DNA of 64,000 bases, from the NCBI RefSeq assembly GCF_001685415.1, contig NZ_CP014989.1:1922001-1986000 (forward strand), in the 5' to 3' direction. A program made the position numbers and the translations under genes. Positions 3,266 through 15,623 of the stretch are shown one piece after another. The DNA comes from Serinicoccus hydrothermalis (lineage in GTDB: Bacteria > Actinomycetota > Actinomycetes > Actinomycetales > Dermatophilaceae). How positions within the stretch are numbered: the stretch's first letter is position 1; every line of letters begins with the position of its first letter. The notes below the pieces were generated by a model that did no database searches, was not told where the DNA came from, and saw only the letters and a program-made list of their open reading frames with translations.

Positions 3266-4078
3266 TCAGGCAACCTCGCGACGGACCAGGCGGCTGCCGG
3301 CGAGCACCGCACCGGCAGCGCCGGCCATGAGCAGGACGGTGAGGACAGGCCCCGAGGTGGCCAGGCCGCCCTGGCCGGAGGGCACGCCGCCCGGGTCGCC
3401 GTGCAGGCCGTCGATCGTCTGCACCGCGAGGTCGAGGGTGTCGTCCTCGGCCGAGCCCCAGGCATACACGATGGTGTTGGTGCCCTCGGCGAGGTCGAGG
3501 TCGGCCGGGCCGATGACGACGTCCTCCGTGCCCGCGAGGACGACGTCGGCGGAGACCGTGGCGGCATCGAGGTCCAGCACCTGCTCGTCCGGGTTGGTCA
3601 GGCCCTCGACGACCGGGCTCCCGTCGGCGCGCACGTCGACGGAGGGGGCGGCCGCGGCGTGCCGCACCGTAAGCCGTGCCTGGCCGGCGTCGAGCATCGA
3701 GGTGTCGTTGGCGAAGGCGGACAGCATGGGGGTGCCGTCCTCGGCGAGGTGGGCCGCGAGCGTGACGTTCGCACCCCCGGGCACCTCGACGCCGTCTGCG
3801 GAGATCGCCGGCTCGGCGGACTCCGGGTCGTCGCCGTCGGCATACACCGCGATGTCGTAGCTGCCCTCCTCCAGCATCATCGGGTCGGTCAGCGTGCCCG
3901 GCTCGAAGTCGGGGATGAGCTCCTCGCCGTCGACGTAGACGTCCACGGTCAGGCCCGGGACGGCGTGCAGGACCGAGACGGTGGCCTCGTGCTCGTCGGC
4001 CGTCGCCGGGGCGGCGAGGGCGACGGTGCCGGCACCGGCCACGAGGGCGGCGGCGCTGGTCGCTGTGAACTTCCGCAT
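3266..4078 (-). CDS. DUF4397 surface protein with sortase-like tail
   Basis: A 270-residue exported protein. A signal peptide (MRKFTATSAAALVAGAG, cleavage likely after ATA) leads into two DUF4397 beta-rich repeats of about 100 residues each (VLHAVPGLTVDVYVDG and VRHAAAAPSVDVRADG). A Gly/Pro linker, LATSG, a hydrophobic helix and a final RRLEVA-like basic end follow (the end reads VRREVA). This looks like a degenerate LAxTG/LPxTG sorting signal, and a class F sortase is encoded 3 bp downstream. The start at 4078 is preferred over an in-frame ATG at 4132 because GAAGGAG lies at good spacing and the signal peptide begins there. DUF4397 has no established biochemical role; a surface or adhesion function is only plausible. 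Confidence 0.85.
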   Translation of the reverse strand: MRKFTATSAAALVAGAGTVALAAPATADEHEATVSVLHAVPGLTVDVYVDGEELIPDFEPGTLTDPMMLEEGSYDIAVYADGDDPESAEPAISADGVEVPGGANVTLAAHLAEDGTPMLSAFANDTSMLDAGQARLTVRHAAAAPSVDVRADGSPVVEGLTNPDEQVLDLDAATVSADVVLAGTEDVVIGPADLDLAEGTNTIVYAWGSAEDDTLDLAVQTIDGLHGDPGGVPSGQGGLATSGPVLTVLLMAGAAGAVLAGSRLVRREVA

Positions 4079-4302
4079 GAGGGGTGCTCCTTCATCGCAG
4101 GTGGGGCGGACCGGTTCCGCCCTCACCACCAACTACGGCCCGGGAGCACCCTGCGGATTCAGTCTTTGTCACACCTCCCTGTGGGGTATGTCTCACGCGG
4201 CTTCCGGTTGTCCGCTGCGGTTTCGCGGGGGACACTGGGCATACCTGAGACAAGGATTGGACAAACTCGAGTCCGGTCCGGACGAGCACCAGGAGGGTGA
4301 CG
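4079..4302. promoter_or_regulatory. Divergent intergenic region, DUF4397 / small hypothetical
   Basis: This 224-nt region separates divergent genes and is less GC-rich than its surroundings. It holds a separated inverted pair (TGTCTCA near 4193, TGAGACA near 4246), one GGCATACC octamer (4238-4245) and AGGAGG at 4291-4296 serving the gene at 4303. Possible -35-like TTGTCC and TTGGAC boxes are present but no convincing paired -10 was found. No gene seen. Confidence 0.4.
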
Positions 4303-5528: not shown

Positions 5529-6230
5529 TCAGACCGAGAAGCCGCGCAGGAGTGCCGCGGTGCCCTCGAGGTGGTCCCGCATCGCCTCCCGTGCCGCCTC
5601 GGGGCGGCCGGCCAGCACGGCGGTGACGACGGCCTCGTGCTGCCGGGTGGAGTGCGCGAGGTTCGGCGGGAGGAGCGGGATGCGGTCCAGCAGCGCGTTC
5701 GTCCGGTCCCGCACGTCGGCGACGACCCCGGCGAGGCTGGGCGATCCGCTCAGTTCGGCGAGCGTCAGGTGCAGCCTCGCGTCGAACGGGCGGTACTGCT
5801 CCACCCCGGCCCGCGCGCAGTCCCGCGCCGCCGCCCGCAGCGCCTCCCGCTGCTCGTCGGTCAGCGTGCGGGAAGCGGCGAGCGCCGCGGCGGCCGGCTC
5901 CACGATGGCGCGCAGGGTCAGCAGGTCCTCCACCTCCGCCGCGTCGAGCCCGCGGCCGACCCCGGGGGTCGGCACCGACCCCGAGACGTAGGTCCCGCCG
6001 TAGCGGCCGCGGCGCACGCTGACGTAGCCCGCCGCCCGCAGCTCGCCGATGACCTCCCGCAGCGTGGTCCGCGAGACCTGCAGCGAGGCCGCGAGCTCGC
6101 GCTCGGCCGGCAGCTTGGACCCGGGAGGGAAGGTCCCGAGGCGCAGCAGCCGGAGCACCCGCTCCATCGTCTCCTCGAAGGCGTTGCCGCGGCGGACCGG
6201 CACCACCCGTGGATCGCGACCGTGCTGCAT
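5529..6230 (-). CDS. GntR/FadR-family transcriptional regulator
   Basis: A 233-residue regulator with an N-terminal winged helix-turn-helix (about residues 12-78: PPGSKLPAERELAASLQVSRTT is the helix-turn-helix region) and a C-terminal all-helical FCD effector domain (Asp and His ligand positions in ARLHLTLAELS and HSTRQHEAVV). The divergent operon beginning at 6341 is the expected target, and an 8-bp inverted repeat in its promoter (6301-6326) is a candidate operator. The ATG at 6230 is chosen over a GTG at 6239 because the minus-strand -10 TACGGT ends 7 nt upstream, implying a leaderless mRNA. The likely effector is the substrate or a gamma-glutamyl intermediate of the adjacent pathway (inference). 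Confidence 0.9.
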   Translation of the reverse strand: MQHGRDPRVVPVRRGNAFEETMERVLRLLRLGTFPPGSKLPAERELAASLQVSRTTLREVIGELRAAGYVSVRRGRYGGTYVSGSVPTPGVGRGLDAAEVEDLLTLRAIVEPAAAALAASRTLTDEQREALRAAARDCARAGVEQYRPFDARLHLTLAELSGSPSLAGVVADVRDRTNALLDRIPLLPPNLAHSTRQHEAVVTAVLAGRPEAAREAMRDHLEGTAALLRGFSV

Positions 6231-6259
6231 ACCCGACACCGTAGGCCCTCCCCGGACCC

Positions 6260-6326
6260 TTGACGGGGCGCGGCAACCGCGCCAGACTCGGTCCGGATGC
6301 TCAATGGACTACTACTGATCCATTGA
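6260..6326 (+). promoter_or_regulatory. Promoter and candidate GntR operator
   Basis: TTGACG (6260-6265) is a -35 candidate, with a weak -10 (CAGACT, about 17 nt on). Immediately downstream is a perfect inverted repeat TCAATGGA (6301-6308), 10-nt spacer, TCCATTGA (6319-6326), just before the RBS GAGGAAGGA of the permease gene. An operator at this site would block transcription. The repeat is seen directly; binding by the adjacent GntR protein is inferred. Confidence 0.6.
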
Positions 6327-6340
6327 CGAGGAAGGACGAC

Positions 6341-7771
6341 ATGGCGCGCAGGGTCGACTACCAGAACGTCGCGGACGACTACCACCAGCACCGGCAGCTC
6401 AAGAAGGGCGCGGCGGGCTGGGTGCTGCTCGCCGGGCTCGGCGTCAGCTACGTCATCTCCGGCGACTTCGCGGGCTGGAACTTCGGCCTTGACGAGGGCG
6501 GCTGGGGCGGCCTGCTCATCGCCACCGTGCTCATGGCCGTGATGTACACCTGCATGGTCCTCGGCCTGGCCGAGATGTCCTCGACCCTGCCGACCGCCGG
6601 CGCCGGCTACGGCTTCGCCCGGCGCGCGCTGGGTCCGCTCGGCGGCTACGCGACCGGCGTCGCGGTGCTCATCGAGTATGCCGTCGCCCCGGCCGCGATC
6701 GCGGTCTTCATCGGCGGCTACGTCGAGGCGCTCGGCCTGTTCGGTCTGACGAACTCCTGGCCGGTCTACCTCGTGGCCTACCTCATCTTCATCGGGCTGC
6801 ACATCTGGGGCGTCGGCGAGGCCCTGAAGGTGATGTTCGCCATCACCGCGGTCGCCGTGGTCGCGCTCCTCGCCACCGTCGTGGGGCTGCTGCCGCACTT
6901 CCGGGTCGACAACCTCTTCGACATCGCCGCCACCGACGCCGCGGGCGCCAGCGGCTTCCTCCCCTTCGGCTTCGCCGGCGCGCTCGCCGCCCTCGTCTAC
7001 GGCATCTGGTTCTTCCTCGCCGTCGAGGGCGTGCCCCTGGCCGCCGAGGAGACGGCCGATCCCAAGCGCGACATGCCCCGCGGGATCATCGTCGCGATGG
7101 GCGTGCTGCTCGTCTTCGCCGCCTTCATGCTGCTGCTCGTCCCCGGCTCGGCCGGGGCCGAGACGGTGCGGGTCTCGGACAACCCGCTCCCACTGGCGCT
7201 GCGGACGGCGCTGGGCGAGGCCTCCTGGATCGCGGGCTTCGTCAACTACGCGGGCCTGGCCGGGCTGGTCGCGAGCTTCTTCTCGATCATCTACGCCTAC
7301 TCGCGCCAGCTCTTCGCCCTCTCCCGGGCGGGCTACCTGCCGCGGGTGCTCTCGCTCACCGGCAGCCGGAAGACGCCGTGGGTGGCGCTCGTCGTGCCGG
7401 GCACCATCGGCTTCCTGCTCGCGGCGCTCACGCAGAACGGCGCCCTGCTCATCAACATCGCCGTCTTCGGCGCGACCGTCTCCTACGTCCTGCTCAACCT
7501 GTCGCACATCGCGCTGCGGCGCCGCGAGCCCGACCTGGAGCGCGGCTACCGCACCCCCGGTGGCGTGGTGACGACCGGCATCGCCCTGACGCTGAGCGTG
7601 GTCGCCGTGATCGCCACCTTCTTCGTCGACCGCACGGCCGCGGGCATCACCGCCGCGGTCTTCGTGGCCTTCGTCGCCTACTTCTGGTTCTACAGCCGCC
7701 ACCACCTCGTCTCCTCCGCCCCGGAGGAGGAGTTCGACCAGATCACCGAGGCCGAAGGGGGCCTGCGATGA
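6341..7771 (+). CDS. eat: Ethanolamine-type APC permease
   Basis: A 476-residue inner-membrane transporter of the amino acid-polyamine-organocation superfamily with about 12 hydrophobic segments. It most resembles the ethanolamine permease group: near its N-terminus it has LKKGAAGWVLLAGLGVSYVIS, GDFAGWNFGL and EGGWGGLL, and later WFFLAVEGVPLAAEE with DPKRDMPRG. It probably imports ethanolamine or a related small amine. ATG 6341 has an AGGAAGGA RBS, and an in-frame upstream extension lacks one. The stop overlaps the next start (ATGA). It is the first gene of a five-gene operon opposite a GntR regulator. Substrate assignment by homology is moderate; a polyamine or amino acid is the alternative. 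Confidence 0.85.
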   Translation: MARRVDYQNVADDYHQHRQLKKGAAGWVLLAGLGVSYVISGDFAGWNFGLDEGGWGGLLIATVLMAVMYTCMVLGLAEMSSTLPTAGAGYGFARRALGPLGGYATGVAVLIEYAVAPAAIAVFIGGYVEALGLFGLTNSWPVYLVAYLIFIGLHIWGVGEALKVMFAITAVAVVALLATVVGLLPHFRVDNLFDIAATDAAGASGFLPFGFAGALAALVYGIWFFLAVEGVPLAAEETADPKRDMPRGIIVAMGVLLVFAAFMLLLVPGSAGAETVRVSDNPLPLALRTALGEASWIAGFVNYAGLAGLVASFFSIIYAYSRQLFALSRAGYLPRVLSLTGSRKTPWVALVVPGTIGFLLAALTQNGALLINIAVFGATVSYVLLNLSHIALRRREPDLERGYRTPGGVVTTGIALTLSVVAVIATFFVDRTAAGITAAVFVAFVAYFWFYSRHHLVSSAPEEEFDQITEAEGGLR

Positions 7772-9132
7772 CCCACCCGCGCAGCGAGCGGATGCTCACC
7801 GTCGACCAGCTCCGGGCGGGGGTGGCCGACGAGAGCATCGAGACCGTCGTCGTCGCCTTCACCGACATGCAGGGCCGGCTCCAGGGCAAGTACCTCCACG
7901 CCGCCTACTTCGTCGAGCACGCGCTCGGGCACGGCGTCGAGGGGTGCAACTACCTGCTCGCCGTCGACACCGAGATGAACACCGTCGACGGCTACGCCAT
8001 CTCCTCCTGGGAGGCCGGCTACGGCGACATGGAGTTCACCCTCGACCTCGACACCATCCGCTGGGTCCCGTGGCTCGAGCGCACGGTGATGATCCAGTGC
8101 GACCTCGCCCTCACCGACGGCTCGCCGGTGCCCATGTCGCCGCGCTCGATGCTCGCCGCGCAGGTCGAGCGGGCCGCCGGCCACGGGTGGTCGGCGGTCG
8201 CCGGGACCGAGCTGGAGTTCGTCGTCTACCGCGACTCCTTCGAGGAGGCCTGGACCAAGGGGTATACCGGTCTCACCCCCGCGAACCAGTACAACGTCGA
8301 CTACTCGATCGTCGGCTCCGGCCGGGTCGAGCCGCTGCTGCGCCGGATCCGCGCGGACATGTGGCGGGCCGGCATGACGGTCGAGTCGGCCAAGGGCGAG
8401 TGCAACTTCGGCCAGCACGAGATCGGCTTCCTCTTCGACGACGTCGTCACCACCTGCGACAACCACAGCGTCTACAAGACCGGCGCCAAGATGATCGCCG
8501 CGGACCTGGGCCAGTCGCTGACCTTCATGGCCAAGCCCAACGAGCGGGAGGGCAACTCCTGCCACATCCACCTCTCGCTGCGCGGCCTGGACGGGTCGAC
8601 GGTCTTCTGGGCGGACGGCGAGCGCACGCCCCTCTACGACCACTTCATCGCCGGGGTGCTCGCGACGATGCGCGAGTTCACCCTCTTCTACGCGCCCAAC
8701 ATCAACTCCTACAAGCGCTTCGCGCAGGGCTCCTTCGCCCCGACCGCGGTCGCCTGGGGCCAGGACAACCGGACCTGCTCGGTGCGCACCGTCGGCGAGG
8801 GCTCGTCGGCGCGGATGGAGAACCGGGTGCCCGGCGGCGACTGCAACCCCTACCTCGCGGTGGCCGCGATGATGGCCGGCGGCCTGCACGGGATCGAGAA
8901 CGAGCTCGAGCTGGAGCCGATGATGACCGGCAACGCCTACGAGTCCGACGCCCCGCTCGTGCCGCACACGCTGCGGGAGGCGCGCGACCTCTTCGCCGCC
9001 TCCGAGGTGGCGCGGGAGGCCTTCGGGCAGGACGTCGTCGACCACTACGTCAACATGGCCGACGTCGAGATCACCGCCTTCGACGCGGCGGTGACCGACT
9101 GGGAGCTGCGGCGGGGGTTCGAGCGTCTGTGA
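7768..9132 (+). CDS. Glutamine-synthetase-like gamma-glutamyl ligase
   Basis: A 454-residue member of the glutamine synthetase superfamily, of the GlnA3/GlnA4/PuuA type rather than housekeeping GlnA. It should ligate glutamate to an amine using ATP. Catalytic elements are visible: TELEFVVYR, AKGECNFGQHEIGF, GNSCHIHLSL and VRTVGEGSSARMENRVPGGD. The adenylylation-tyrosine region of GlnA I is absent. It starts in an ATGA overlap with the permease stop and its own stop overlaps the next GTG. With an ethanolamine-type permease and an alcohol-dehydrogenase-like SDR in the operon, gamma-glutamylethanolamide synthesis is the best inference; a polyamine is the main alternative. Confidence 0.88.
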   Translation: MTHPRSERMLTVDQLRAGVADESIETVVVAFTDMQGRLQGKYLHAAYFVEHALGHGVEGCNYLLAVDTEMNTVDGYAISSWEAGYGDMEFTLDLDTIRWVPWLERTVMIQCDLALTDGSPVPMSPRSMLAAQVERAAGHGWSAVAGTELEFVVYRDSFEEAWTKGYTGLTPANQYNVDYSIVGSGRVEPLLRRIRADMWRAGMTVESAKGECNFGQHEIGFLFDDVVTTCDNHSVYKTGAKMIAADLGQSLTFMAKPNEREGNSCHIHLSLRGLDGSTVFWADGERTPLYDHFIAGVLATMREFTLFYAPNINSYKRFAQGSFAPTAVAWGQDNRTCSVRTVGEGSSARMENRVPGGDCNPYLAVAAMMAGGLHGIENELELEPMMTGNAYESDAPLVPHTLREARDLFAASEVAREAFGQDVVDHYVNMADVEITAFDAAVTDWELRRGFERL

Positions 9133-9848
9133 GCCGACCACGGATCGGGCTGACCACCTACTACAAGGAGGCCGCCTGGGGTGTCTGGCGACGCCCGGCG
9201 GCGATCGTCCCCGCCGCCTACGTCGAGGGGGTCGCCTCGGCCGGGGGCACGCCCGTGCTGCTTCCGCCGGTCGGGTCCGACCCCTCGGTGCTGGACGTCC
9301 TCGACGCGCTGGTGCTCGTCGGCGGGGCGGACGTCGACGCGGCGCAGTATGCCGCCGCCCCCCACCCGAGCACCGCGCCCGAGCCGGTGCGCGACGCCCC
9401 CGAGCTGGCGCTGGCGCGGGCCGCGCTGGAGCGGGGCCTGCCGCTGCTCGCGATCTGCCGCGGGGTGCAGGTGCTCAACGTCGCGCTCGGGGGGACGCTC
9501 GAGCAGCACCTGCCCGAGCGGCTGGGGCACACGGCATACCAGCCGAGCCCGGGGGTCTTCGGCGAGGTGACCTTCCGCACCGAGCCGGGCTCGCGGATCG
9601 CCGCGGTGCTCGGCGAGGAGGCGGTCTCGCCGTGCTACCACCACCAGGGCGTCGGTGGGGTCGCCGACGGGCTCGTCGTCACCGCCCGCTCCGCCGACGG
9701 GGTGATCCAGGCGCTGGAGCCCGCCGACGGCCCCGGCTGGGCGATCGGCGTGCAGTTCCACCCCGAGGAGAACCCTGCCGACCGCCGGCTCTTCCACGCC
9801 CTCGTGGCCCAGGCCACCGATCCCGCACGCGACCCGAGGAGATCCTGA
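9129..9848 (+). CDS. Class I glutamine-amidotransferase-like gamma-glutamyl hydrolase (PuuD type)
   Basis: A 239-residue enzyme expected to release glutamate from a gamma-glutamyl amide, the last step of a gamma-glutamylation pathway. The nucleophile is the Cys in AICRGVQVLNVALGG, and the His-x-Glu pair is in GVQFHPEE. LVGGADVDAAQY is typical of the PuuD/gamma-Glu-GABA hydrolase group. GTG is the start, overlapping the ligase stop (GTGA), so translation is coupled. Its presence shows that the glutamyl group is a temporary tag that is recycled. Confidence 0.88.
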   Translation: MSRPRIGLTTYYKEAAWGVWRRPAAIVPAAYVEGVASAGGTPVLLPPVGSDPSVLDVLDALVLVGGADVDAAQYAAAPHPSTAPEPVRDAPELALARAALERGLPLLAICRGVQVLNVALGGTLEQHLPERLGHTAYQPSPGVFGEVTFRTEPGSRIAAVLGEEAVSPCYHHQGVGGVADGLVVTARSADGVIQALEPADGPGWAIGVQFHPEENPADRRLFHALVAQATDPARDPRRS

Positions 9849-9852
9849 GCAG

Positions 9853-11214
9853 ATGAGCACGACCGACGTCATCGACCCGGCGACCGAGGAGGTCATCACC
9901 TCCCTCGAGCTCGCCGACGTGGACGAGACCGACCGGGCGGTCGAGACCGCCCACCGCGCGTTCGCGACCTGGCGCACGGTCTCCCCCGCCGACCGGGCCC
10001 GGCTGCTGCGCCGCTTCGCCGCCGTGGTCGACGAGCACGTCGAGGAGCTGGCGCGGCTGGAGGTGCGCAACGCCGGGCATACCCTCGGCAACGCACGGTG
10101 GGAGGCCGGCAACGTCCGGGACGTGCTCAACTACTACTCCGGCGCGCCCGAGCGCCCGGCCGGCGACACCATCCCCGTGGACGGCGGCGTCGCCATGACG
10201 TATGCCGAGCCGCTGGGCGTCGTCGCGGTGATCGTGCCGTGGAACTTCCCCATGCCCATCGCCGGCTGGGCGATCGGCCCGGCGCTGGCCGCCGGCAACA
10301 CCGTGGTCCTCAAGCCCGCCGAGCTCACCCCGCTCACCGCGCTGCGGCTGGCCGAGCTGGCCCTGGAGGCGGGCCTACCGGAGGGCGTCCTGCAGGTGCT
10401 GCCGGGGCGGGGGTCGGTCGTCGGCGCGCGCTTCGTCACGCACCCGCTCGTCCGCAAGGTCGTCTTCACCGGGTCCACGGCCGTCGGCAAGCAGGTCATG
10501 GCCGGCTGCGCCGAGCAGGTGAAGCGGGTGACGCTGGAGCTGGGCGGCAAGAACGCCAGCATCGTCTTCGCCGACGCCGACCTGGACGTCGCGGCCGCGG
10601 CGGCACCCGGCGGCGCCTTCGACAACGCGGGGCAGGACTGCTGCGCCCGCTCCCGGCTGCTCGTCCAGGAGGACGTGCTCGACGACTTCCTCGGGCGGCT
10701 GGAGCCGGCGGTGCGCGGCTTCGTCTGCGGGGACCCCGGCGACGAGGGCAGCGGGATGGGCCCGCTCATCTCCGCCGGTCAGCGCGAGGTCGTGGCCGGC
10801 TACGTCGGCGACGCGGAGGTGCTCATCCAGGGCGAGGCGCCGCAGGGGCCGGGCTTCTGGCACCCCCCGACCGTGCTCCGCACCCGGTCCGAGAGCGACC
10901 CGGCCTTCACCGAGGAGATCTTCGGGCCGGTGATCTCGGTGCTGCCCTTCCGGGACGAGGCGGACGCGCTGCGCATCGCCAACGACACGGCATACGGGCT
11001 GTCCGGCTCGATCTGGACCCGCGACGTGGGGCGGGCGCTGCGCGTGGCGCGCGGGCTGGAGGCCGGCAACCTCGCCGTCAACAGCCACAGCTCGGTGCGC
11101 TACAACACCCCGTTCGGCGGCGTCAAGGCCTCCGGGCTCGGGCGTGAGCTGGGCCCGCACGCGCTGGACGCCTTCACCGACACCAAGACCATCTTCATCG
11201 CCACCACCGACTGA
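9853..11214 (+). CDS. NAD(P)-dependent aldehyde dehydrogenase
   Basis: A 453-residue aldehyde dehydrogenase that should oxidise the gamma-glutamyl aldehyde to its acid. Visible motifs are the PWNFPMPIAGW cofactor region, FTGSTAVGKQVM, the general-base Glu in LELGGKNASIVF (about residue 235), and the catalytic Cys in NAGQDCCARSRLLV (about 270). GPVISVLPF and NTPFGGVKASGLGRE complete the fold. GAGGAGA lies upstream of ATG 9853, 4 nt after the hydrolase stop. It is close to the PuuC/betaine-aldehyde dehydrogenase group. The substrate is inferred from operon context. Confidence 0.93.
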   Translation: MSTTDVIDPATEEVITSLELADVDETDRAVETAHRAFATWRTVSPADRARLLRRFAAVVDEHVEELARLEVRNAGHTLGNARWEAGNVRDVLNYYSGAPERPAGDTIPVDGGVAMTYAEPLGVVAVIVPWNFPMPIAGWAIGPALAAGNTVVLKPAELTPLTALRLAELALEAGLPEGVLQVLPGRGSVVGARFVTHPLVRKVVFTGSTAVGKQVMAGCAEQVKRVTLELGGKNASIVFADADLDVAAAAAPGGAFDNAGQDCCARSRLLVQEDVLDDFLGRLEPAVRGFVCGDPGDEGSGMGPLISAGQREVVAGYVGDAEVLIQGEAPQGPGFWHPPTVLRTRSESDPAFTEEIFGPVISVLPFRDEADALRIANDTAYGLSGSIWTRDVGRALRVARGLEAGNLAVNSHSSVRYNTPFGGVKASGLGRELGPHALDAFTDTKTIFIATTD

Positions 11215-11229
11215 GACGAGAGGACCGCC

Positions 11230-12030
11230 ATGAGCCACCCCGGAAAGATCGACCTGACCCAGCGGCTCGCCGGCCGCGTCGCCGTGGTGACCGGCGGCGC
11301 CAGCGGCATCGGCCTGGCCAGCGCCCGCCGCCTCGCCGCCGAGGGCGCCACCGTGGTGCTCGCCGACATCTGCGAGCAGAGCGCGGGCGAGGCCTTGGCG
11401 CAGGAGCTCGGCGGCCTCTTCGTCCGCACCGATGTCACCGACCCCGACGAGGTCGAGCGCCTCTTCGCCACGGCCAAGCAGGCCTACGGCAGCGTGGACG
11501 TCGCCTTCAACAACGCCGGGATCTCCCCGCCGGAGGACGACTCCATCCTCGAGACCGGGCTGGAGGCCTGGCGCCGGGTGCAGGAGGTCAACCTCACCAG
11601 CGTCTACCTGTGCTGCAAGGCGGCGCTGCCCTACATGCTCGAGCAGCGGCGTGGGTCGATCATCAACACCGCCTCCTTCGTGGCGGTGATGGGCGCGGCG
11701 ACCTCGCAGATCAGCTACTCGGCCTCCAAGGGCGGCGTGCTGTCCATGACGCGGGAGCTGGGGGTCCAGTTCGCCCGGTCGGGCGTGCGGGTCAACGCGC
11801 TTTGCCCCGGCCCGGTCAACACCCCGCTGCTGCAGGAGCTCTTCGCCTCCGACCCGGAGCGGGCCCAGCGCCGGCTGGTCCACGTGCCGATGGGCCGCTT
11901 CGGCGAGCCCGCGGAGATGGCCGCCGCGGTGGCCTTCCTGGCCAGCGACGACAGCTCGTTCATGACCGCGGCGGAGTTCCTCGTCGACGGTGGCATCAGC
12001 TCGGCCTACGTGACCCCCCTGGACGCCTGA
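11230..12030 (+). CDS. Short-chain dehydrogenase/reductase
   Basis: A 266-residue classical SDR. The NAD(P) site is VVTGGASGIGLASARRLA, followed by FNNAGIS and the catalytic Ser/Tyr/Lys in SQISYSASKGG. Asp in VLADI after the second strand suggests NAD preference. It lies 15 nt after the aldehyde dehydrogenase with a GAGAGGA RBS. Automated labels often call such genes 3-oxoacyl-ACP reductase, but here no fatty-acid genes are near. The operon needs an alcohol dehydrogenase if the substrate is an amino alcohol, so oxidation of gamma-glutamylethanolamide to the aldehyde is the favoured role (inference). Its last 28 nt are duplicated downstream. Confidence 0.88.
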   Translation: MSHPGKIDLTQRLAGRVAVVTGGASGIGLASARRLAAEGATVVLADICEQSAGEALAQELGGLFVRTDVTDPDEVERLFATAKQAYGSVDVAFNNAGISPPEDDSILETGLEAWRRVQEVNLTSVYLCCKAALPYMLEQRRGSIINTASFVAVMGAATSQISYSASKGGVLSMTRELGVQFARSGVRVNALCPGPVNTPLLQELFASDPERAQRRLVHVPMGRFGEPAEMAAAVAFLASDDSSFMTAAEFLVDGGISSAYVTPLDA

Positions 12031-12060
12031 CCCCGGCCTACGTGACCCCTGGACGTCTGA
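12003..12060 (+). repeat. Tandem duplication of the SDR gene end
   Basis: The last 28 nt of the SDR gene (12003-12030, encoding AYVTPLDA and stop) are followed by a near copy at 12033-12060 that has lost two bases and carries one substitution. The copy is non-coding. It lies 12 nt before a palindromic repeat and may be a footprint of local slippage or of the repeat inserting. Confidence 0.8.
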
Positions 12061-12072
12061 GCCCACTCTCCC

Positions 12073-12128
12073 CCGAATTCGACCTCTGGAAACGTCGCCA
12101 TGGCGAACATTTCAGAGGTCGAATTCGG
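12073..12128. repeat. Palindromic interspersed repeat, copy A
   Basis: Perfect 16-bp arms (CCGAATTCGACCTCTG at 12073-12088; reverse complement at 12113-12128) flank a partly palindromic centre containing CGCCATGGCGAAC. It lies between the convergent SDR and CopD-type genes. Related copies are at 42423-42479, 50291-50344 and 50361-50421. It could fold as a bidirectional terminator or be a REP/MITE-like element. Confidence 0.85.
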
Positions 12129-12129
12129 A

Positions 12130-12227
12130 CAGAAACTGGCGGAGAGCTGGCCCGTTCCGGCAGAAACTGGCGGAGGAGCTGGCCCGCTGGGCTCAGGAGC
12201 CGGGCCGTGCCCCGAGCTGGGCTCAGG
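12130..12227. repeat. Nested direct repeats next to palindrome A
   Basis: A roughly 25-nt unit starting CAGAAACTGGCGGAG occurs at 12130-12154 and 12161-12186. GCTGGGCTCAGG occurs at 12186-12197 and 12216-12227, the second copy including the stop codon of the following minus-strand gene. The arrangement suggests repeated slippage or rearrangement at this gene junction. No gene is present. Confidence 0.75.
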
Positions 12228-13763
12228 GGTCGGCGCGCACCCGGAGGGTGTCGGCGAAGCCGTCGACGGCCTGTCCCTCGGCCTGGCTGACGAAGCCGTA
12301 GTCGCCTTCCGCCGAGGGCGCCGGGAAGGTGATGAAGGTCCGCGGTGGGACGTCGACGTCGAAGTCGGGCGAGGTGATGGTCGCGGCGGTGTCGCTGCTG
12401 TTGTAGACCGTCACCGCCTGCCCCGGACGCACCGTGCCGGGCACGTGGAAGCGCTCGTCGTCGATGAGGATGCTGACCGAGAGCTCGCCGTGGTCGTGCC
12501 CGATCATCTCGGCGGCCGAGGAGTCGGCTGTGGGCGGCTCCGCTGCCGGGCGGTCCTCCGTCCGCGGTATGTCGTCGGTCTGGGCGGTCGAGGATCCCTG
12601 CTCGGTGGGCCCCTCCACCTCTGCGGGCGGGACGGCACTCACCGGTGCGCCGGTGGCCGGTGCGGGTGCCGGCGAGGCGGCCAGCGCCACGGACACCGTG
12701 AGGGTCAGGGCCATCAGCGCGACCTCGACGACCCCCAGGCGGACGAAGGTCCACGGACGACCGGCCTCGAGCGCCGGGATGGTAGCCCGCCGGTGCTGCC
12801 ACCCGATGAGGCCGAGGACCACCACCAGCGCGACCTTCACGGCCAGCAGATGGACCCAGCCCTCGCCCAGCCACGACCACGACAGGGCACCGGCCACGAC
12901 GAGGGCCGCGACCACCCCCGACAGCAGGAGCAGGGCGAGGCAGGCCAGGGCCAGACCGCTGAACCGGCGCACGGCGTGGGCGCTCTCGCCCCCCCCCCCG
13001 GCCCTTACAGCAGCAGCGCCGCCAGGCCCCCCACCCAGAGGGTCGCCGAGACGACGTGCGCCGAGAGCGTGATCACGGCGGCGACATGGCTGCCGGCTGC
13101 CGCGGAGTGGCCGGCCAGGACGCCCGGGACGACCACGGCGCACAGCGCCAGCACCAGCAGAAGGGAGGACGCGGTCCGGAGCCCCGCGACCGGTCGTCGG
13201 GCCAGCACGCTGCTGCCGGCGGCCACGACGACCAGCGGGACAGCGACCCAGAGGGTGGCCCTGCCCACCGGCAGCTCGAGGGCCAGCCCGACCACCCCCG
13301 CCACCGACAGCTGCGACACCGGGACGCCCAGGATGGTGCTCGCGGTCAGCACCAGGCCGGCCAGCTCGGCGACCAGCCACACCGCAGCGGTCCAGGCGGT
13401 GCCGCGCAGGGCCCGGACCGTCCCTGCGGAGGAGGGCGGCGCGAGCAGCGCCGCGAAGACCAGCTGGCCCACCGTCAGGACGGCCAGCAGGCGCGCGGCC
13501 AGACTCGCCGGCAGGCCCCAGCCGGTGACGGGCCCCGCGTCGGGCAGACCCCCCGGCGACGGGACGGGGGCGCCGCCACCCACGAGCAACGCCGCGACCA
13601 GCACGGCGGTCAGCACGCCGCAGGCGGCGACGACGGTGACGGGAAGGCGCGCGGAGGAGGGCCGACCTAGCGCGGCCGAGGAGAATGCTGCCTCCTCGGT
13701 GCCCTCAGAAATGCCCCCGTCCCTCTCGGAGGTGTCTTTCTGCTCCGGGGGCGAGATGCCCAC
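12223..13763 (-). pseudogene. CopD-domain/cupredoxin membrane protein, frame disrupted
   Basis: Two adjacent frames make one recognisable gene. The 5' part (13763 to stop at 13005, 252 residues) carries a hydrophilic N-terminus and most of a CopD-like multi-helix copper-resistance domain, ending ATLWVGGLAALLL then TAA. The 3' part (about 13004 to 12223) continues in a -1 frame with the last CopD helices (FSGLALACLALLLLSG), an acidic linker and a C-terminal cupredoxin-like domain that lacks a Cys copper ligand. Adding one G just before the TAA would join them, giving about 510 residues. An 11-C run (12989-12999) follows immediately, so a sequencing slip is as likely as a mutation. The start is 3 nt after the sortase stop, as in an operon. 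Confidence 0.75.
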
Positions 13764-13766
13764 CGG

Positions 13767-14552
13767 TCAGGCCTCACGGGCGAAGACGATGACGTTGTCG
13801 TTGTAGTGGCCGGTGCTCTCCGAGATCGTGCCGGCGCAGGTGATGACCCGCAGCTCAGGTCCGGGGGTGTTCCCGTAGACCTGCGCGGTGGGAAAGGCGT
13901 TCTTGGGGAACTGCTGCAGGTCGTAGACCTCGAAGGTGGCCTCGCTGCCGTCGGCCCGGGTGACCTCGACGGTGTCGCCGACGCTGAGCGCGGCGAGGTC
14001 GAAGAAGACGGAGGGCCCACGCCCGATGCTGCTGACGTGGCCGAGGATGACGGCCGGGCCGTCCTCGCCGGGTCGGGGAGAACCGTCGTACCACGCGGCG
14101 GTGTCGAAGTCGTCGCCCTCCGGGACGGCCAGGGCCCCCTCGTCGTCCAGGCCGAGGTGCAGCAGGTCGGAGGTCACGCCGATCGCGGGGATGTTCACCG
14201 AGACCGGCTCCTCCACCGGTGCGGGCTCCTCGACCGGGATCGCCTCGTCGTCGGCGGTCTCCTCCGTGGAAGATCCCGCCGAGTCCTCGCTGTCGCCGTC
14301 CTCGGGAGCCTGCGTCTCCGCAGCTGCGGACGGGACCGGTGCCGGCAGGGCCGTGCTCTCCCCGACGTCGCGGCTCGCCGTCGCGCTGTCGGCCAGGGTG
14401 GGCGGGGTGGGGGTGGCCTCCGGTCCGGACAGGCCCACTGCCATGGCGGTGCCGCCACCCAGGACCAGCGCCAGCCCGAGGGCCGTGCGCAGGACGGGAC
14501 CGCGACGTCGGGCAGCACGAGGCGTGCTCGGCTGCCCGACGTCCTCGGTCAT
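13767..14552 (-). CDS. Class F sortase (second copy), catalytic Arg replaced
   Basis: A 261-residue membrane-anchored sortase. The N-terminal helix is about residues 21-41, then a long acidic Pro/Glu/Ser linker, and the sortase domain from about residue 118. His is in ILGHVSSIG and Cys in VITCAGTI. The position of the Arg in the first sortase (Cys+12, SYRDN) is Asn here (HYNDN). It lies between the CHRD-type substrate candidate (14566-15332) and the CopD gene, all on one strand with 3-13 nt gaps. The upstream protein ends in a LAATG tail, a plausible sorting signal. Fold assignment is firm; activity is less so. Confidence 0.9.
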   Translation of the reverse strand: MTEDVGQPSTPRAARRRGPVLRTALGLALVLGGGTAMAVGLSGPEATPTPPTLADSATASRDVGESTALPAPVPSAAAETQAPEDGDSEDSAGSSTEETADDEAIPVEEPAPVEEPVSVNIPAIGVTSDLLHLGLDDEGALAVPEGDDFDTAAWYDGSPRPGEDGPAVILGHVSSIGRGPSVFFDLAALSVGDTVEVTRADGSEATFEVYDLQQFPKNAFPTAQVYGNTPGPELRVITCAGTISESTGHYNDNVIVFAREA

Positions 14553-14565
14553 CGAGAGAGCTCGA

Positions 14566-15332
14566 TCAGCTCTGCTCGGCGCTGCGGCGACGCATGAGGA
14601 TCAGCGCGCCACCCACCAGGACGACACCGCCGGTCGCGGCGAGCGCCAGGTTCTGACCGCCGAGGCTCGCCTCACCGGTGCCGACACCGCCTCCGGGGGT
14701 CTCGCCCATCTGGGAGACCTGGGCCACGCCGCACAGGGCCGGGTCGGTCGCCTCACCGGGCAGCGACGGGTCCAGGTCGGACGCGCCACGGTCACCCTCG
14801 TCGTAGGCACCGCTGCCGTCGTAGTCGACACCGTGCACGACCACCACGGCCTCGCCGTCCGCGAGCGCGTCGGCCGTCTCCTGGTCGACCTCCACGTCGG
14901 CGCGGGAGTAGCTGACGTCGTCACCCACACCGAAGCGGTCGACGGCCAGGCCGGAGTCCGGGCTGGTGTCACCCTCGGTGGTCAGCGACACCTTGATGCC
15001 ACCGTAGGCGGGGACACCCTCGGTGGTGGTGAGGAAGCCGCTGCCGTCGGCGTCGTCCTCCGCGGTCGGGCACATGTTGCGGGCGTCCTCGGCGTCGTGG
15101 ATGTGCGCGGCGTGCGGCGCATCCGCCAGCAGGCCCTGGTAGGCCAGCGTGAAGTGCAGGGTGGTGCCGTCCATCTCGATCATGGCCGAGCCGGAGCCGG
15201 GGGCACCGTTCAGCGGGACCGGCTGGAGGTCGGCCATCGACTCACCGGTGGCCGCCAGCGCGGGGGCGCCGGCCAGCATCAGCGCTGCCACGCCAGCGGC
15301 GGGGCAGCGAGGTACTTGCGAGAAATTCTCAT
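14566..15332 (-). pseudogene. CHRD-like surface protein with LAATG tail, signal peptide frameshifted
   Basis: This encodes about 255 residues: an export signal, a CHRD-like beta domain (LHFTLAYQGLL, PHAAHIHDAED, VVVVHGVDYDGSG), a Gly-rich linker, LAATG, a hydrophobic helix and an RRRSAEQS tail. It is therefore a probable wall-anchored substrate of the adjacent sortase. The natural start is ATG 15332 (AGAAGGG upstream) encoding MRISRKYLAAP, but that frame hits TGA after 17 codons. One extra C in the GCCCC run near 15300 restores a perfect signal peptide (LAAPAAGVAALMLAGAPALA). The downstream frame stays open for over 240 codons without damage, which points to a recent mutation or a sequencing error. 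Confidence 0.75.
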
Positions 15333-15623
15333 GGAGAAAGCCCTTCTGATCGGACCTGCAGCACGCAATCCCAATACGCCTCGACAGGCAGGTATCCCAG
15401 GGACCTGGGACGACGAGCAAGTTAACCGCTCGCGAGCAGGAATGCACACCGAAACGCCCCCGAAACACGGGAGGACCGGAATTCTCCGCGCCAACACTCA
15501 GGATTCAGCACAGAATTTCACCTCCCGCGACGTTACACAACTCGCGAGTAACAGGAAATCTCGGGACGACTTTCCCTTCACGTCAGGGGCGGCCACGGAA
15601 TGCTGCACCAGCGGGGTCCTCCG
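15333..15623. promoter_or_regulatory. AT-richer divergent intergenic region
   Basis: This region of about 290 nt lies between the CHRD gene and the Fpg/Nei gene and is clearly less GC-rich than its surroundings. It contains CTCGCGAG at 15428 and again near 15541, the latter framed by GTTAC...GTAAC (15532-15552). No coding frame with RBS support was found. It probably holds the CHRD operon promoter, but I could not pin a -35/-10 pair. Confidence 0.4.

Follow-up and report, generated by a model that had tools for sequence, protein, structure and literature searches.

The question raised by this locus of Serinicoccus hydrothermalis is which compound is broken down by a set of genes that resembles the E. 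coli Puu putrescine pathway in its glutamine synthetase (GS)-like, aldehyde dehydrogenase (ALDH) and PuuD-like parts, but differs from it in containing no PuuB-type oxidase and in a GS that falls below the PuuA cut-off. The cluster is very likely a GlnA4-type ethanolamine utilisation operon. In Streptomyces, such a cluster (SCO1610-SCO1615) and its route to glycine and glutamate were published in 2019 (PMC6529630). The window, by which the whole analysed stretch of 64,000 nucleotides is meant (positions 1922001-1986000 of a single 3.6-Mb contig), is a well-supported further example of a cluster and pathway already known since then. What the present analysis contributes is the correction of a probable misnaming of the short-chain dehydrogenase (SDR) and a testable operator.

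Gene content and layout

Five open reading frames lie head to tail on the + strand at 6341-12030 (Table 1), with 4-bp overlaps at the permease/GS and GS/PuuD junctions, a 4-bp gap between PuuD and ALDH and a 15-bp gap between ALDH and SDR. This spacing by itself suggests that the five genes may be co-transcribed as one operon. Protein families were confirmed with Pfam and NCBIfam models. Together with the open reading frames, these bear out the permease, GS-like, PuuD-like, ALDH and SDR genes listed in the original prediction, which had, however, omitted the divergent FadR-type regulator. Gene order is the same in Serinicoccus sediminis (L054), the nearest named relative of the window GS (96% identical).

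Table 1. Features of the probable ethanolamine-type locus, with positions in the window
Feature	Position	Strand	Evidence or remark
GntR/FadR-type (FCD) regulator, predicted EpuRI (SCO1614) orthologue	5529..6239	-	PF00392 and PF07729; start codon uncertain
Possible promoter, TTGACG - 17 nt - CAGACT	6260..6288	+	Identified by eye
Palindrome CAATGG-N12-CCATTG, proposed regulator operator	6302..6325		Between promoter and permease
APC permease, ethanolamine-permease type	6341..7771	+	TIGR00908
Predicted GlnA4-type gamma-glutamylethanolamide synthetase (GS-like)	7768..9132	+	PF00120, tree, residues
Class-I glutamine-amidotransferase-like hydrolase (Peptidase_C26, PuuD-like), proposed gamma-glutamylglycine hydrolase	9129..9848	+	PF07722; GTG start
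Aldehyde dehydrogenase, predicted SCO1612 orthologue	9853..11214	+	PF00171
SDR, predicted SCO1611 orthologue, proposed gamma-glutamylethanolamide dehydrogenase	11230..12030	+	NF004713

The permease scored 521.4 bits against TIGR00908, the "ethanolamine permease" model (cut-off 381.75), in agreement with its earlier assignment to the ethanolamine group, and is 58-62% identical to the cluster permease in most permease-bearing Streptomyces loci. The hydrolase matched PF07722 (183 bits) and contains AICRG and QFHPE, the ALDH matched PF00171 (530 bits) and contains ELGGK and GQ.C, and the SDR contains TGGASGIG and YSASK; we take these to be the expected motifs of the three proteins. Neither the ALDH nor the hydrolase passed a specific NCBIfam cut-off among the models listed.

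Beyond the 3' end of the operon, a CopD-type protein (PF05425) is encoded on the opposite strand (12223-13380, -), and a sortase-domain protein (PF04203) adjoins a CHRD-domain protein (PF07452) at 13767-15468 (-). A DUF4397 protein is located at 3266-4132 (-).

Relationship of the ligase to GlnA4

The GS-like protein scored below the cut-offs of the GlnA model (211.7 against 429.15 bits), the type III GS model (221.2 against 469.6 bits) and the PuuA model NF045547 (180.2 against 650 bits). A true glutamine synthetase was rejected because both the GlnA and the type III GS scores lie under their cut-offs. BLAST identity to Streptomyces GlnA4 orthologues is 62-64%, and 14 of the 17 residues given in the GlnA4 paper for metal, glutamate, ATP and the enlarged pocket are kept at a constant offset of 8. 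The mismatched GlnA4 positions (189, 81 and 69) are model-dependent pocket positions, with Ile in place of Val at residue 189. The GS proteins of S. europaeiscabiei and S. torulosus keep 15 of the 17 residues (offset 17).

A tree of 30 proteins of the GS family was computed, into which the GS-family genes of six genomes were entered; it covered 23 loci, with frames chosen by phmmer. The window protein groups with cluster genes of Streptomyces, Arthrobacter, Nocardioides and G008 (11 rows, support 93/98), and the other two GS genes of the Serinicoccus genome are placed away from this GlnA4 group. The closest solved GS is PDB 5dm3, presumably a protein from C. salexigens, which is 43% identical to the window GS. 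Together with L157 it joins the group to give 13 rows (support 100/100), the exact position of these two being unsure because of long branches (L163, L159, L157 and 5dm3).

Twelve Streptomyces-type loci were searched with the primer sequences given in PMC6529630. For S. parvulus (L119), the glnA4 pair maps to the GS with 2 and 0 mismatches, the SCO1614 pair to the regulator with 1 and 0, and the SCO1612 pair to the ALDH with 4 and 0. Several of the remaining loci had single primers whose best match lay elsewhere, with at least 3 mismatches. Residues, primers, neighbourhood and tree support the reading that the window cluster is orthologous to the Streptomyces GlnA4 cluster.

Proposed pathway and published systems

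GlnA4 of S. coelicolor (SCO1613) has been assayed and makes gamma-glutamylethanolamide, which substantiates the earlier remark that such a synthetase is known in Streptomyces; the enzyme is reported to be ethanolamine-specific (PMC6529630). According to the same paper, a glnA4 mutant was defective in growth on ethanolamine and grew on putrescine, cadaverine and spermidine, and the divergent EpuRI (SCO1614) represses glnA4. For Serinicoccus, we infer the transfer of these functions, ethanolamine as the substrate, the three later steps and the operator. Judging by its family, the permease would import ethanolamine, which the GS-like ligase would join to glutamate using ATP, as shown for the S. 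coelicolor orthologue. The gamma-glutamyl conjugate may then be oxidised twice, at its alcohol by the SDR and at the resulting aldehyde by the ALDH, after which the PuuD-like hydrolase may cleave gamma-glutamylglycine to glutamate and glycine; the literature consulted infers the same three steps. The divergent EpuRI-type repressor, whose control was shown in S. coelicolor, would act on the operon via the proposed palindrome.

This order of steps, already set out in the original prediction, is the one proposed for SCO1610-SCO1615, where the discussion of the paper has the SDR, ALDH and hydrolase lead to glycine and glutamate (PMC6529630). The implied novelty of a complete pathway cluster does not stand, since the legend to Fig. 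2 there already names a short-chain dehydrogenase, an aldehyde dehydrogenase, GlnA4, a regulator, a putative ethanolamine transporter and a glutamine amidotransferase. As described there, the Streptomyces cluster shares with the window the GS, ALDH, SDR, FadR-type regulator and amidotransferase and, in several species, the permease, which the S. coelicolor cluster itself lacks (PMC6529630). The arrangement is different: permease-GS-PuuD-ALDH-SDR all run in one direction in Serinicoccus, whereas Streptomyces has GS-ALDH-SDR on one side and, divergently, regulator-permease-PuuD on the other.

The GlnA4 pathway is repeated in PMC9397018, where the C. salexigens counterparts are listed as PF00465 and PF05013, and a related operon with a TRAP transporter has been described in Phaeobacter, in which the proteins increase on phosphatidylethanolamine (PMC10132767). 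As presented in these two sources, the Chromohalobacter/Phaeobacter pathway follows the same logic of glutamylation, two oxidations and hydrolysis to glycine and glutamate. However, a PF00465 dehydrogenase and a PF05013 amidohydrolase in C. salexigens, and TRAP in Phaeobacter, stand where the window has an SDR, a Peptidase_C26 protein and an APC permease, so that three parts of the window operon come from families unrelated to these counterparts. No paper was found in the literature on Serinicoccus and ethanolamine.

Occurrence among relatives

A GlnA4-like match at E <= 1e-100 was present in 53 of 198 genomes sampled from the phylum, with identities of 41-66%, the window itself apart. The non-lyase, non-encapsulated ethanolamine route would thus be widespread in actinobacteria and not a peculiarity of Streptomyces. 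The two same-family genomes in this draw gave no GS match at that threshold, which makes its presence patchy near home. In 20 stretches around relatives, the GS was found in 20, the ALDH and PuuD in 19 each, the SDR in 18, the permease in 11 and the regulator in 8. The best 80 of 582 named loci, some of them on short contigs, contained the GS (80), SDR (77), ALDH (75), PuuD (71), regulator (67) and a permease of this type (27). Because the gene set recurs in relatives, the operon is not a chance assembly.

In a metagenome bin that bears the proteobacterial name Nitrococcus, a locus (L130) encodes a GS, ALDH and SDR that are 62%, 58% and 64% identical to those of the window, the explanation being lateral transfer or else faulty binning.

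Alternative routes and substrates

The canonical Eut ammonia-lyase pathway was rejected, as neither EutB nor the BMC shell was matched in the Serinicoccus genome by searches whose E. coli control was positive, in line with the earlier remark of a pathway with no ethanolamine ammonia-lyase. The GS, ALDH and PuuD-like parts would also suit a polyamine pathway of the Puu type with PuuB replaced by an unlinked oxidase, and 23 DAO-family (PuuB-type) matches do occur elsewhere in the genome. None of them lies inside the operon, as originally predicted, and the GS reaches 180 bits against a PuuA cut-off of 650 and groups with GlnA4 in the tree. The retention of the SDR in 77 of the best 80 named loci and the growth of the S. 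coelicolor mutant on polyamines (PMC6529630) also make this pathway extremely improbable. The same chemistry may instead be directed at another small amino alcohol, such as propanolamine or alaninol, with ethanolamine as a side substrate: the sequence tests applied here do not separate these substrates, permease models resolve the substrate poorly, and residue 189 carries the substitution described above. We regard this as quite unlikely, given a permease above the ethanolamine cut-off and the ethanolamine specificity reported for S. coelicolor GlnA4 (PMC6529630).

A further alternative concerns the SDR, which scored 493 bits against NF004713 (cut-off 404), a model bearing the name 3-oxoacyl-ACP reductase; it might accordingly be a fatty-acid enzyme and a mere neighbour of the other genes. 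A survey of 198 genomes of the phylum, in which up to 12 candidates were scored per genome, yielded at least 30 matches over this cut-off in 28 genomes, and for 25 of the 30 matches listed a GlnA4-type GS match is located no more than 10 kb away. The five exceptions are situated 18 kb away (G161:C2), on a contig other than that of the GS (G166, G184 and G013) or in a genome without a GS match (G119). This association renders the fatty-acid reading very improbable. The NF004713 family is probably the gamma-glutamylethanolamide dehydrogenase of such clusters, and the NCBI name is probably a misnomer for the SDR of the ethanolamine operon.

Regulator and candidate operator

The regulator shares 46-55% identity with its FadR counterpart in the Streptomyces loci, and the intergenic sequence between it and the permease reads TCAATGGACTACTACTGATCCATTGA. 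The TTGACG-17-CAGACT arrangement is repeated in L054; the promoter call is weak because a consensus scan of 6100-12400 for promoters and terminators found none at its threshold.

The palindrome follows the 24-bp pattern CAAWGG-N12-CCWTTG, which was fixed post hoc, after comparison with five relatives and a permissive scan across all loci. It is the sole match in the window (0 expected, none in 100 shuffles) and is unique in the Serinicoccus genome. In 81 cluster records, comprising the best 80 of 582 named loci and the window (1,393,341 bases), the pattern occurs in 34, once per record and never within a recognised cluster gene, and the exact site is absent from 47. For 30 of the 34 sites, a recognised match to the regulator, permease, GS or PuuD lies no more than 250 bases away, and first-order Markov simulations of the 81 records gave 0 matches in each of 10 runs.

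Among 296 genomes of the class, 71 contain the pattern, with many sites far from any known cluster among the matches listed; a backwards control pattern also has many matches among those listed. The pattern alone is not specific in all genomes, and chance matches occur in AT-richer ones. When 13 genomes were checked for both GS and pattern, 8 had the pattern and 5 bore the cluster without the exact site. Among the 7 pattern-bearing genomes with a listed position, the site is no more than 2 kb from the GS in 6, the exception being G150.

EpuRI binds 250-bp upstream fragments in EMSA, those of glnA4 and epuRI among them (PMC8998196). No EpuRI binding motif was found in the main texts searched, including PMC6529630 and PMC8998196. 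We propose that the EpuRI-type repressor uses the palindrome as its operator, which is possibly new. It is likely that one operator, CAAWGG-N12-CCWTTG, bound by EpuRI-type FadR proteins, marks gamma-glutamylethanolamide operons across much of Actinomycetota, even those with an APC permease of an unrelated subfamily. If true, it would serve as a sequence signature for a regulon for which the main texts searched gave no binding site.

Of the four palindrome sites distant from the recognised genes (L075, L078, L085 and L086), the one in Nocardioides (L075) was inspected. It is followed after 74 bases by a 514-aa APC permease of another subfamily, TIGR00907, with a score below cut-off; the same arrangement of palindrome and TIGR00907-like APC permease is seen in L098, a locus of Kitasatospora/Streptomyces type. 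Both read as cases in which the transporter may have been swapped and the regulatory site kept. The two TIGR00907-like permeases (L075:6594-8236 and L098:7321-9004) occupy the slot held by the TIGR00908 type in Serinicoccus and in most permease-bearing Streptomyces loci.
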